Shown piece after piece: positions 10 to 20,514 of a stretch of DNA of 64,000 bases. Every line of letters starts with the position of its first letter. The stretch's first letter is position 1. Both the position numbers and the translations under genes were made by a program. A model generated the notes under the pieces. It was not told the DNA's origin. It made no database searches and saw only the letters and a program-made list of their open reading frames with translations. Source of the stretch: Cryomorphaceae bacterium BACL11 MAG-121001-bin54 (GTDB lineage: Bacteria > Bacteroidota > Bacteroidia > Flavobacteriales > BACL11); contig CAJJAH010000004.1 of assembly GCA_905182255.1 (NCBI GenBank), positions 1 through 64,000 of the forward strand. Direction: 5' to 3'.

Positions 10-687
10 AATAAAGTTAGTAGTGTTCTTTTCATAGTTATTTTATATTTTGTTTACTCTTTTTTGGTGTCTTCCTCCTTCAAATTGGGTGCTAAGAAAT
101 GTGTCTACAATTTTTTCTACTTCTTCCCAATCTAAATGCCTAGCCGGCATAGTAAGTATGTTTGCATTATTATGCATACGGGCTTGTTCTGCAATATGAG
201 GATTCCAACAAAGTGCTGCTCTTATTTTTTGATGTTTATTGGCCGACATATTTATTCCATTACCCGTTCCACAAAACTGAATACCCAATTCATTTTCATC
301 TTTTTCAATACTTTCGGCTAATTTATGTGCAAAGTCAGGATAATCTACACTCTCTAAAGAATGACATCCATAATCATTAATTTCATTATTTTTACTAGAT
401 AAAAATATTTTTAATTTTTCTTTAAATTTATATCCTGCATGATCGCACGCTAATCCTATTTTCATGTATTTTTATTTTAACAGTGTGTTAATATTTATTT
501 TTTAATTCTAGTTATATATTTAAAGTTATTAAAAAAATTGTTTTTAACTTGTTAGTAAATAACTAATCAAAAATAACAAGTAATTATCAATTATTAATTT
601 TAAAAACTAAGACAATAAATAAATAAATAATCAATAAATATTATTATTACTTATATTTTATTTTTAAGAACACTTATTAACTTTATT
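10..687. repeat. Imperfect inverted repeat flanking rpiB
   Basis: Bases 10-30 and 666-687 are near-perfect inverted copies. The reverse complement of the left arm begins AAGAACACT and ends TAACTTTATT, and the right arm has the same two blocks with a one-base length difference between them. The arms lie on either side of rpiB. No transposase or target duplication is visible, so function is unknown and chance in AT-rich DNA is possible. Confidence 0.35.
43..465 (-). CDS. rpiB: Ribose-5-phosphate isomerase B
   Basis: This cytosolic enzyme interconverts ribulose 5-phosphate and ribose 5-phosphate in the pentose phosphate pathway. The 140-residue protein is full length for the RpiB/LacAB family. 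It shows the N-terminal CDHAGYKFKE phosphate-binding segment (residues 7-16), DYPDFA (41-46), the catalytic-cysteine loop CGTGNGINMSANK (Cys65) and HNNAN (98-102). It starts at an ATG with the AT-rich gap upstream and is not in an obvious operon. The family call is secure; preference for ribose rather than another pentose or hexose is inferred. Confidence 0.95.
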   Translation of the reverse strand: MKIGLACDHAGYKFKEKLKIFLSSKNNEINDYGCHSLESVDYPDFAHKLAESIEKDENELGIQFCGTGNGINMSANKHQKIRAALCWNPHIAEQARMHNNANILTMPARHLDWEEVEKIVDTFLSTQFEGGRHQKRVNKI

Positions 688-1022
688 TGATTGTAAATTT
701 AAAATTATTTATTAATATTTAATGGTTAATTAAGCTTATTAACAACTTGTATTTTTAGTTAGTTAAATATCTAAGTTATTGATTTTAAATTATTAAAAAT
801 TAACATAATTATTTACAAGTTGTTGATTTATTTTTAAATATTATTAATCCTATTTATATTAATAATAATTATAAACCTAACTAACACCTTATATATATAT
901 ACATAAATCTTTTTTAAATTTATAATAAATAATATATATATTATATATAATTACTGTTAACTCAATTTTTACTTTAAATAAATTTGTATACTTTTATACT
1001 CTAAATAATTAACTTTAAAACT
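466..1022. other. Very AT-rich divergent intergenic region
   Basis: This 557-bp gap separates rpiB (leftward) from the secreted Kazal/Omp28 gene (rightward). It is almost entirely A and T, with TA runs near 890-950, and I see no ORF, tRNA or terminator. Four ACTTGT hexamers form two inverted pairs (547-552 with 576-581, and 745-750 with 815-820); the second pair extends to 11 bp of dyad symmetry (741-751 and 814-824). It presumably holds both promoters and may hold regulator sites. I found no DnaA box close to TTATCCACA, so a replication origin is not supported. Confidence 0.6.
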
Positions 1023-17730: not shown

Positions 17731-18882
17731 ATGTTATTTAAAGAGGTAGTAGGAAATAGTTTAGTGAAAAAGCAACTAACTGATGCGGTTAAAAACAACC
17801 GAATTAGTCATGCTCAGCTTTTTTCTGGTAAAAGTGGTAGCGCTAAATTGGCTTTATCACTTGCGTATGCCCAATTTTTAAATTGCGAAAACAGAACTGC
17901 AATTGATTCTTGTGGAATCTGTTCCTCATGTATTAAAATTAACAACCTATCTCACCCCGATTTGCACTTAGTTCTTCCGGTTTTAAAGACTAAAACAGTG
18001 CAGAGTCCTGTAAGTGACCATTTTATTAGTCAGTGGCGCAAATTCATAACTAACAATTATTATGGATCACTAAATGGTTGGATTGATTCATTTGGAACTG
18101 AAAATAAAACAGGGCAGCAAGGGACAATTTATAAAGATGAGGCAAATAATATTCATAAAAAATTAAGCCTCAAAAATTATGAGGCGAAATATAGAATTGT
18201 GTTGATTTGGATGCCAGAAAGAATGAATTTAGAAACATCTAATAAGCTCTTGAAGTTGTTTGAAGAGCCACCAAAGGGAACTGTCTTTTTACTTGTAACA
18301 GAAAATGCTAATCAACTTTTACCTACTATAACCTCAAGGTTACAGACGCTAAAAATTGCAGATTTTACGACAGAAGATATTATTACCTATTTTGGAGGGG
18401 AGACTTTGTCATTGGAAAGAGCGAAACATCTTAGAAATTTAACTAATGCAGATTTGGGAAAAATTAGTCAAATTTTGGATGATAAAGAAGGTGAATTAGA
18501 TTTATTTTCTGACTTTTCAGATTGGATGCGACTTACATATAAGATGGATGTTCAGGGAATTTCAAATTGGGTAGACAATCTTTCTTTAAAGGGCAGAAAA
18601 CAGCAAAATATATTCCTGTCATATGCTATAAAAATGATTAGGGAGTGTTTAATTTATAATTTTGCGAGTTATTCTTTGCTCAAAACAAACAAAAATGAAC
18701 TTGCTTTTTTAACTAAATTTTCGCCATTTATACATGAAGAAAACAGTGTGTTTATAGCTGAAAAATTAGAAGAATCAATTAAAGCTATTAATAGAAATGC
18801 AAATGCAAAAATCTTATTTTTTGAGCTTTCACTTCAAATGGTGAAATTCTTAAGACTTAAGCGTAAATTTGCCTTAAAATAA
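17731..18882 (+). CDS. holB: DNA polymerase III delta' subunit
   Basis: Clamp-loader subunit of the replicative polymerase, AAA+ fold, 383 residues. The P-loop is degenerate (GKSGSAKLA), as expected for delta', and a four-cysteine zinc motif CGICSSCIKI follows at about 60-75. EEPPKGTVFLLVTEN and an SRLQT segment mark sensor regions. First gene of a six-gene rightward run through ricT, gldH and PBP1A to the CoA transferase. Confidence 0.9.
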   Translation: MLFKEVVGNSLVKKQLTDAVKNNRISHAQLFSGKSGSAKLALSLAYAQFLNCENRTAIDSCGICSSCIKINNLSHPDLHLVLPVLKTKTVQSPVSDHFISQWRKFITNNYYGSLNGWIDSFGTENKTGQQGTIYKDEANNIHKKLSLKNYEAKYRIVLIWMPERMNLETSNKLLKLFEEPPKGTVFLLVTENANQLLPTITSRLQTLKIADFTTEDIITYFGGETLSLERAKHLRNLTNADLGKISQILDDKEGELDLFSDFSDWMRLTYKMDVQGISNWVDNLSLKGRKQQNIFLSYAIKMIRECLIYNFASYSLLKTNKNELAFLTKFSPFIHEENSVFIAEKLEESIKAINRNANAKILFFELSLQMVKFLRLKRKFALK

Positions 18883-18887
18883 AAAAA

Positions 18888-20039
18888 ATGGGTTGTAGTA
18901 ATTGTAGTACATGTGAGGTGTCTGAGAAAAGAGGTTCTGCTAACAGTACTGTTTTTGACTGGTTATATCAAATTGACGCTCCAAAAAGCGAAAACAGTAA
19001 CTTGGTTGAAGTGCAGTTTAAGGGAGACAGGAAAGATTTTTACGTTAATTCAGAGGATATTGATATTAGCAGTGGAGATTGGGTAGCAGTACAGGGCGAA
19101 AAGTCTGGGCATGATATTGGTAAAGTAACTATGAAGGGAGAGCTAGTAGCTCTTCAAATAAAAAGAAAAAGCAGAAATGTTGAAAAGGATCCAATAAGAA
19201 AACTATTTAGAATAGCGTCAGAAAATGATATGCAGAAATGGAAAAGTGCAGTAGCAAATGAGGACGATATTTTAATCAAAGCAAAACGAATCATTGAAGA
19301 CTCCAGATTAGAAATGAAGCTTACGGATGTTGAGTTTCAGGGTGATAATTCGAAAGCAACATTTTATTATACTGCAGAAAAAAGAGTTGACTTCAGAGAT
19401 TTAGTAAGAGAGTATTCAAGAAACTTTGGAGTTAGAGTAGAAATGCGCCAGATTGGAGTTAGACAAGAAGCTGCAAAAATTGGAGGAATAGGTTCATGCG
19501 GTAGGGAGCTTTGCTGTTCTACATGGATGACGGACTTTCCTTCAGTATCAACTAATGCCGCTCGATATCAGCAACTATCAATTAACCCTCAGAAAATTTC
19601 AGGACAATGCGGAAGATTAAAGTGTTGTTTGAATTTTGAATTAGATGGATATACTGAGGCTTTAAAGGACTTTCCGAGCACAAAAGTTATGTTAAAATCT
19701 AAAAAAGGAAATGCGAAATTTGTAAAATTAGATGTTTTTAAAGGTGTCTTATTTTATTTTAATATGGATAACCCTGGTGACTTGCTTGAGCTGTCCATTG
19801 AAAATGTAAATAAAATAATTGCATTAAATAAGAAAGGAGAGCTTCCTGCAAGCTTTGAAAGTTTTGTAATTGAAATCGAGCAAAAAGAAGTTTCTTTTGA
19901 GGACGCTATGGGCCAAGACAATATTGGGCGTTTTGACAAAAAGAAGAAGCCAAAATTCAAAAAGAAAAAAAAGGGAAATTGTCATTGTGGAAAAACTAAA
20001 AATCCAAATGGAAATTGTGATGGGTCACACCGTAACTAA
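18888..20039 (+). CDS. ricT: PSP1/RicT-family protein with CDGSH-like C-terminus
   Basis: Homologue of B. subtilis RicT (YaaT), part of the Ric complex that binds Fe-S clusters and affects RNase Y-dependent RNA processing. The 383 residues show an N-terminal cysteine cluster (MGCSNCSTCE) and the PSP1 core with GSCGRELCCSTWM and GQCGRLKCCLNFE at about 204-250. A lysine-rich linker and CHCGKTKNPNGNCDGSH at the very end resemble the CDGSH 2Fe-2S motif with one extra residue in the loop. The family call is firm. The tail function is inferred. Confidence 0.88.
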   Translation: MGCSNCSTCEVSEKRGSANSTVFDWLYQIDAPKSENSNLVEVQFKGDRKDFYVNSEDIDISSGDWVAVQGEKSGHDIGKVTMKGELVALQIKRKSRNVEKDPIRKLFRIASENDMQKWKSAVANEDDILIKAKRIIEDSRLEMKLTDVEFQGDNSKATFYYTAEKRVDFRDLVREYSRNFGVRVEMRQIGVRQEAAKIGGIGSCGRELCCSTWMTDFPSVSTNAARYQQLSINPQKISGQCGRLKCCLNFELDGYTEALKDFPSTKVMLKSKKGNAKFVKLDVFKGVLFYFNMDNPGDLLELSIENVNKIIALNKKGELPASFESFVIEIEQKEVSFEDAMGQDNIGRFDKKKKPKFKKKKKGNCHCGKTKNPNGNCDGSHRN

Positions 20040-20052
20040 AGATAATTATTCG

Positions 20053-20514
20053 ATGCGGATTTTAGTTTTAATTTGCACAATAGGCATGTTAATTTCATGT
20101 AATAACTCTATTGTTTTTGAAGAGTATAAAAATTTTGAAAATCAGAAATGGAATTCAGATAGTATAGCGCTTTTTAACTGCTTTGTAGATGACACTACTA
20201 GTAAAAATATAATAAAAATTAAGTTAAGACATTCGGTTGATTATGAATTTCAGAATTTATTTATATTTATTGAATCAGAAGTGAAGGACACCGTTGAATT
20301 GATATTGGCTAACAAGGAGGGAATGTGGTTGGGCAAAGGAATTGGAGATATAAGGGAGTTTGAGTTTGAATATAATAACTCAAAGTTATTTAGTAAAAAA
20401 GGAAATTATTCTTTTAAAATTGAACAAGCAATGCGTTATGGATCGCATGAAAAAATACAAGTACTAAATAATGTTCTTTCGTTAGGCTTGAGCATAAAAA
20501 AAACAAATGAGTAG
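20053..20514 (+). CDS. gldH: Gliding motility lipoprotein GldH
   Basis: Lipoprotein of the flavobacterial gliding/T9SS machinery. Starting at the ATG at 20053 gives 153 residues with a signal sequence and lipobox LISC (Cys at about 16). The C-terminal part (MWLGKGIGDIREFEFEY, then YSFKIEQAMRYG) agrees with GldH. A longer open frame upstream overlaps ricT and is rejected as a start. It overlaps the PBP1A gene by 8 bases, and the ricT-gldH-PBP1A order supports the call. Confidence 0.85.
   Translation: MRILVLICTIGMLISCNNSIVFEEYKNFENQKWNSDSIALFNCFVDDTTSKNIIKIKLRHSVDYEFQNLFIFIESEVKDTVELILANKEGMWLGKGIGDIREFEFEYNNSKLFSKKGNYSFKIEQAMRYGSHEKIQVLNNVLSLGLSIKKTNE

Follow-up and report, generated by a model that had tools for sequence, protein, structure and literature searches.

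A probable captured mini-CDGSH module at the C-terminus of RicT in one flavobacterial genus, with relatives on other host proteins and in viral contigs

The ricT gene of Cryomorphaceae bacterium BACL11 MAG-121001-bin54 (Flavobacteriales) encodes a protein that ends in a short CDGSH-like tail, which is real, not a product of chance, and kept by selection. This tail is probably a captured copy of a mobile mini-module, derived from the CDGSH motif and about 17 residues long, which would bind one metal centre through three cysteines and one histidine and would follow the formula C-x-C-G-x-[ST]-x4-G-x-C-D-G-[ST]-H, with a spacer of nine residues. Its fusion through a flexible basic linker may have given RicT a second cytosolic point of metal-dependent contact or sensing, with the RicT core left unaltered. 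The proposed unit would be portable, serving as a RicT tail, ahead of the signal peptide of YceI-type proteins, as free micro-ORFs, and as micro-ORFs in phage lysis regions. We infer metal binding, the cytosolic location, transfer between phages and hosts, and, as its function, a contact that responds to redox state or metal. The window, that is, the whole stretch of DNA analysed, comprises 64,000 nucleotides of contig CAJJAH010000004.1 (C4) from a source genome of 1.04 Mb that is 53% complete, and the features concerned are listed in Table 1.

Table 1. Features of the ricT region in the window.
Feature	Position	Strand	Basis or remark
holB-like DNA polymerase III delta' gene	17731..18882	+	Profiles; directly upstream of ricT, outside the module
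ricT (PSP1/YaaT family), 383 aa, with C-terminal mini-module	18888..20039	+	ORF, ATG start, Pfam/NCBIfam profiles
N-terminal cysteine triad of RicT, Cys3-Cys6-Cys9	18894..18914	+	Invariant in 24/24 aligned RicT
RicT Fe-S loop, Cys204/209/210 and Cys241/246/247	19497..19628	+	Alignment; match to B. subtilis ligands by motif, inferred
Lysine-rich linker of RicT	19938..19976	+	Module-free relatives have a longer basic tail here
x9 mini-CDGSH module, CHCGKTKNPNGNCDGSH	19980..20030	+	Candidate ligands Cys365, Cys367, Cys377, His381
gldH (gliding-motility lipoprotein), next gene	20053..20514	+	TIGR03511 above cut-off

The RicT ORF with a CDGSH-like C-terminal motif is present where the first-pass annotation had placed it, and its product matches both the NCBIfam model RicT_YaaT (NF041131; E 5e-76, 254.9 bits, cut-off 70) and Pfam PSP1 (E 5.6e-28). 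The ORF closes with KKKKPKFKKKKKGNCHCGKTKNPNGNCDGSHRN before the stop codon, the last 19 residues of the protein being CHCGKTKNPNGNCDGSHRN, and the tail motif reads C-x-C-x2-T-x6-C-D-G-S-H, with three cysteines and one histidine. Excerpts of PMC3174974 and PMC5859297 give the CDGSH consensus as C-x-C-x2-(S/T)-x3-P-x-C-D-G-(S/T/A)-H, in which eight residues separate the second cysteine from the third, whereas the RicT tail has nine (x9), which bears out the excess of one residue seen at first pass. The N-terminal cysteine cluster described there is also present, in the sequence MGCSNCSTC. On the forward strand the genes follow the order holB-like, ricT, gldH, and a gene of the PBP1A family; gldH starts 13 nt past the ricT stop, and the promoter and terminator scan was at background level for promoters.

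The link drawn at first pass to the Fe-S clusters of the Bacillus Ric complex held for the protein itself and not for its partners. In B. subtilis RicT the clusters are ligated by the loop C161/166/167/198/203/204, of which the cysteine pairs ligate cluster 1, plus one Cys of cluster 2 (excerpts of PMC6751060). The six cysteines of the matching loop are invariant in all 24 aligned RicT, and the protein stands above the NCBIfam cut-off of the RicT family; the C-terminal mini-module sets RicT here apart from B. subtilis RicT/YaaT, as the N-terminal cysteine triad may also do. A further difference is that RicA/RicF (Com_YlbF, PF06133) were found above cut-off in none of the 52 genomes of the family, the B. 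subtilis control being positive, so that the analogy to the Bacillus Ric complex is weak here. RNase Y (PF12072) was detected in 29/52 of these genomes and was not found in the 53% complete source genome. RicT of this family probably works in an arrangement other than the Bacillus complex. Searches of the open-access literature, with subscription papers and preprints largely outside their reach, returned no link between RicT and CDGSH apart from other meanings of these abbreviations, and no open-access paper on RicT in Bacteroidetes was found.

The RicT body was found in 33 of the 52 family genomes, and 30 C-termini were compared, the other three being left out because their alignment stops short of the tail. 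Eight of the 30 carry the module at the C-terminus, all within the source genus (8/14 of its genomes), and the 22 other C-termini compared have a basic tail instead of the module. An assembly error is excluded, since RicT ends in this tail in eight genomes of the genus. The first-pass annotation had counted absence of the tail from close homologues as a refutation; the comparison restricts the tail to 8/30 C-termini and one genus, and its being missing from most RicT speaks against a core RicT role. A tail confined to one genus is also a poor guide to RicT in general. On a RicT tree built without the tail region, presence and absence of the tail take two changes, and a single-change explanation was found in 0 of 200 bootstrap trees, which leaves two captures, a single one followed by losses, or a transferred 3' end.

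Codon changes within the module of the eight RicT tails comprise 8 synonymous against 2 replacement changes (P = 1.9e-4, counted as minimum events with a neutral synonymous fraction of 0.225). Both replacements, Asn8 to Asp and Ser16 to Ala, occur only in L006 and leave its four candidate ligands intact, and these ligands are invariant in 8/8 tails. This test speaks against a useless relic, and it already disfavours the reading in which recombination at the ricT-gldH junction left the tail behind as a by-product, neutral or slightly deleterious. The patchy distribution of the tail, its two changes on the tree, and a ricT 3' end that varies in length and abuts gldH would all suit such a by-product; however, with the excess of synonymous changes and the invariant ligands set against them, we regard it as very unlikely. 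A recent exchange of the tail of genome G047, considered for its low synonymous difference, gave P values between 0.036 and 0.46 in six comparisons, a borderline result, and was dropped.

Several comparisons support homology of the module to the CDGSH motif itself, as judged from sequence. Aligned by hhalign with one gap, the module profile matched the second motif of tandem CDGSH proteins at a probability of 96%, a value to be taken with care as it comes from a two-profile comparison of cysteine-rich stretches. Its best match in the PDB was weak (E 0.098) and fell on 3tbn, filed as a putative uncharacterized protein, which we take to be a type-6 CISD. Two of eight kin peptides, one of the eight being a made-up composite, reached PF09360 below threshold (E 8e-4 and 2.6e-3), and the pattern of CDG(S/T/A)H with three cysteines and one histidine in order is found in 8/8 RicT tails and in 21/21 rows of the profile A1. 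With CISD proteins (PF09360), and best with the second motif of type-6-like tandem proteins, the module shares the order and kind of ligands and Ser/Thr6, and with tandem CISDs also flanking sequence such as CMCKQTKNPPYCDGSHANL. However, the PF09360 search proposed at first pass gave no match for RicT with its tail, even at E 10, so that such a search would miss the tail.

The relation to CDGSH claimed at first pass therefore stands for the motif and not for the fold. Excerpts of PMC3174974 state that true CISDs require a paired interface (hydrophobic 1, Pro11, hydrophobic 12), an N-strand and a P motif, and inspection of the module sequence against the consensus in those excerpts showed the dimer-interface residues, the N-strand and the P motif to be absent. 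In contrast to CISDs, the module has a spacer of nine instead of eight, no conserved proline at position 11 and no conserved hydrophobic residues at 1 and 12; it stands alone at 17-28 residues, and it scores below the Pfam cut-off or has no match. As it lacks the interface, N-strand and P motif, it is not classed as a CISD. Another CDGSH-like tail was observed in Bacteroidota at L079, where a frame of 219 aa (139-798, reverse strand), presumably YdeI/DUF1801-like, ends in a sequence of canonical spacing, CICGLSKRMPNCDGSH. It may represent a second case of a C-terminal CDGSH-like appendage in this phylum.

A stretch of 17 residues that holds three cysteines and one histidine and has conserved turns points to a small metal site, and metal binding by the module appears likely. 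Fe-S and zinc are about equally likely, the lack of a scaffold speaking for zinc and the strict conservation of the CDGSH half for Fe-S; the second Fe-S module proposed at first pass thus becomes a module without CISD fold features, for which [2Fe-2S] is one option beside zinc. It is possible, if somewhat doubtful, that the module forms a small zinc knuckle, a docking or stability tag instead of a redox-active Fe-S site; on RicT it would help to hold RNA or a partner. Four candidate ligands in so short a stretch with no surrounding fold scaffold would fit such a knuckle, as would the absent CISD dimer interface and strands and the lysine-rich flank in RicT, basic-flanked zinc motifs often holding RNA or a partner. 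However, the Asp, Gly and Ser/Thr near the third cysteine and the histidine, as well as Ser/Thr6, are kept beyond the needs of a plain knuckle, and neither SEC-C nor any other zinc model of Pfam matches the RicT tail, even at E 10. The SEC-C zinc motif follows the pattern C-x-C-x8-C-(C/H). It resembles the RicT tail in being a short C-x-C-G ... C tail that ends a nucleic-acid-related protein, whereas the RicT tail has DGSH after the third cysteine in place of Cys/His; with this departure from the pattern and no Pfam match, SEC-C was rejected as the identity of the tail.

A true CDGSH-type [2Fe-2S] centre, formed by pairing of modules either as a homodimer or between the RicT tail and a micro-protein, can be entertained tentatively and would make RicT iron- or redox-responsive. 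Besides the motif homology to CDGSH, pairing would suit the 3/8 RicT-tail genomes that have a module-bearing free micro-ORF as well, and the loop length seemingly varies in one phage family, in which L410 (x10) resembles by eye the x9 protein of L186, so that the site could tolerate one residue more. Against pairing stand the lack of an N-strand, P motif or hydrophobic interface and the canonical CDGSH proteins already present above cut-off in 22/52 family genomes, which have no obvious need of another. The AlphaFold2 models weigh against the mini-module reading as such: in that of RicT the tail has a pLDDT below 50, though so does the known RicT Fe-S loop in the same model, and a 43-aa phage relative reached only 58, values too low for the models to serve as a guide to the module.

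The proposed mini-module also occurs in other host settings. Profile A1, run on a sample of 395 genomes of the Flavobacteriales-like order, matched 34 genomes at E <= 0.01, and the module was counted in 28 of them, as a RicT tail in 8, in a YceI-type frame in 10 and as a micro-ORF in 14, with 4 overlaps; the micro-ORF tally covers one of two copies in genome G100. The remaining six matches were weak and uncounted, among them G085 with a canonical tandem CDGSH protein. The host micro-ORFs are about 25-50 aa long; the source genome has a free copy on contig C1 (96449-96514), conserved in two more genomes of the genus. Another search, of 395 genomes, gave 14 matches besides the source genome: tandem CDGSH frames of canonical type with one gap in 10, one canonical motif by itself in L080, the CDGSH end only in L084 and L086, and L081 as the last. 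One weak match (G798) was obtained from 296 genomes of the phylum, and among the frames read no x9 module was seen outside the order.

YceI was confirmed by BLASTP in frame with the module in 9/10 YceI-type genomes, the tenth (G072) having an in-frame stop. In these fusions the module precedes a signal-peptide-like stretch, so that, judging from this order, it should stay in the cytosol. An HxlR regulator lies opposite all 9/9 confirmed YceI fusions and 3 micro-ORFs (BLASTP), and two of these regulators match PF01638 (E 7e-27 and 9e-22). In raw counts, four to six GTTAC/GTAAC boxes occur upstream of the module in 11 of 12 loci tested, and L066, where the locus is cut by the contig end and no HxlR was found, has two. 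These HxlR/YceI loci with regularly spaced boxes are possibly an unstudied regulon. Some HxlR-family regulators respond to thiol-reactive stress or aldehydes, and a redox or electrophile link is plausible for the module genes they oppose. No paper dealing with YceI and HxlR together was found in the open-access literature. HxlR genes are divergent from the mini-CDGSH-YceI genes at L032-L034, L052, L053, L056, L059, L060 and L067, and the micro-ORF L118 of genome G265 lies directly 3' of a yceI gene.

The module also occurs in viruses. A 51-nt nucleotide pattern for the x9 module matched at least 120 viral contigs of IMG/VR, and all 120 matches listed lie in an open frame. Among spacer controls in IMG/VR, the canonical eight gave at least 120 matches, ten gave 1 (L410), and a frame-broken pattern of 50 nt, serving as the background control, gave 1. 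With lengths set by the nearest upstream ATG, the 120 listed x9 loci comprise 72 ORFs of up to 30 aa, 27 of 31-60 aa and 21 longer ones, and most of the matches listed are micro-ORFs of 22-30 aa; the x8 single CDGSH motifs of viruses (L290-L409) fall at 31-60 aa in 81/119 ORFs and at up to 30 aa in 6. The fixed residues of the viral module are constant by construction of the pattern. Among the 120 matches listed, the positions left free conserve Gly4 (116/120) and Asn/Asp8 (105/120), and position 6 is always S or T, although the pattern permitted other codons. Over 36 close pairs, free positions had 27 synonymous versus 34 replacement changes, with a dN/dS of about 0.38 (P = 2.4e-4).

Longer viral proteins carry the module as well. 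It stands in front of a family of about 109 aa at 13 loci (L192, L134, L218 and others) and forms the last residues of XkdF-type serine protease proteins at 8 loci (L162, L145, L171, L227, L232 and others), the protein of L162 matching the Peptidase_S78_2 profile. The 109-aa family, for which Pfam gave nothing at its cut-off, has a conserved neighbour of 95 aa (cluster 10). Micro-proteins of 38-43 aa (L137, L148, L149, L153, L160, L169, L202, L237 and L238) share a conserved end after the module, F[DE][MF]N.LPFP, whose sequence suggests a second binding element. None of six phage peptides scanned fell into a PHROGs family, and PADLOC returned nothing for three proteins. No useful match came from tblastn searches of annotated phages with queries of 21, 25, 37 and 73 aa, nor from a search of plasmids with that of 21 aa; given such short queries and a low-complexity filter, this result is of limited weight. 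No paper on CDGSH genes in phages was found in the open-access literature, a search that left subscription papers and preprints largely outside, and a full-text term search of the review on phage small proteins PMC11323111 found CDGSH, iron-sulfur and zinc absent.

The neighbours within three genes of viral x9 loci were clustered into families, several of which relate to lysis. Among the matches listed, a holin family (PHROG holin, E 2e-16) lies near the module at 43 loci and tail-fibre proteins at 21. A second small membrane protein with weak PHROG holin resemblance, often 8-12 nt upstream of the micro-ORF, occurs at 36 loci, and M15 endolysins (PHROG endolysin, Peptidase_M15_3) at 13 and 11 loci. 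A holin or endolysin lies within 2.5 kb of the module at 65 of the 120 listed loci, or in 30/59 groups with near-duplicates removed. Within the 41 loci of sufficient length, a holin or endolysin lies in 1.9% of the windows 5 kb or more from the module, which is the fairer control, though the query proteins also come from x9 neighbourhoods. The same families were found in 0/58 groups of x8 viral loci, a comparison biased by queries drawn from x9 neighbourhoods. Of three annotated phage records with relatives of the holin, two have both a holin and an M15 peptidase, and the second small membrane protein had no relative in these three.

The x9 viral contigs have a median G+C of 0.33, and one fusion protein is related to the Nonlabens phages P12024S/L, among 69 records that include Vibrio and Halorubrum. 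This low G+C and the Nonlabens phage relation are compatible, and no more, with flavobacterial hosts, and we read the setting of the phage contigs as marine. It is a speculative and rather unlikely extension that a phage-borne metallo-micro-protein of about 25 residues acts in lysis and was repeatedly captured by marine flavobacteria as a portable switch. If this were true, the timing of holin and endolysin might, for example, be tuned to the cellular iron or redox state, and the switch would have been captured on RicT in the source genus and ahead of the YceI export signal elsewhere.

With the tail read as a captured mini-CDGSH module, the odd end of one RicT becomes one case of a micro-module family found on host proteins and in phage lysis cassettes. 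This CDGSH-like unit is far smaller than any CDGSH domain that we found described, its size lies below the usual gene-caller threshold, and standard annotation overlooks it. The host copies on YceI-type proteins have a consistent HxlR-regulated context. The module allows a clean test of how short a sequence may be and still hold a 3Cys-1His metal centre, and it raises the question of how a phage might make lysis depend on metal or redox state.
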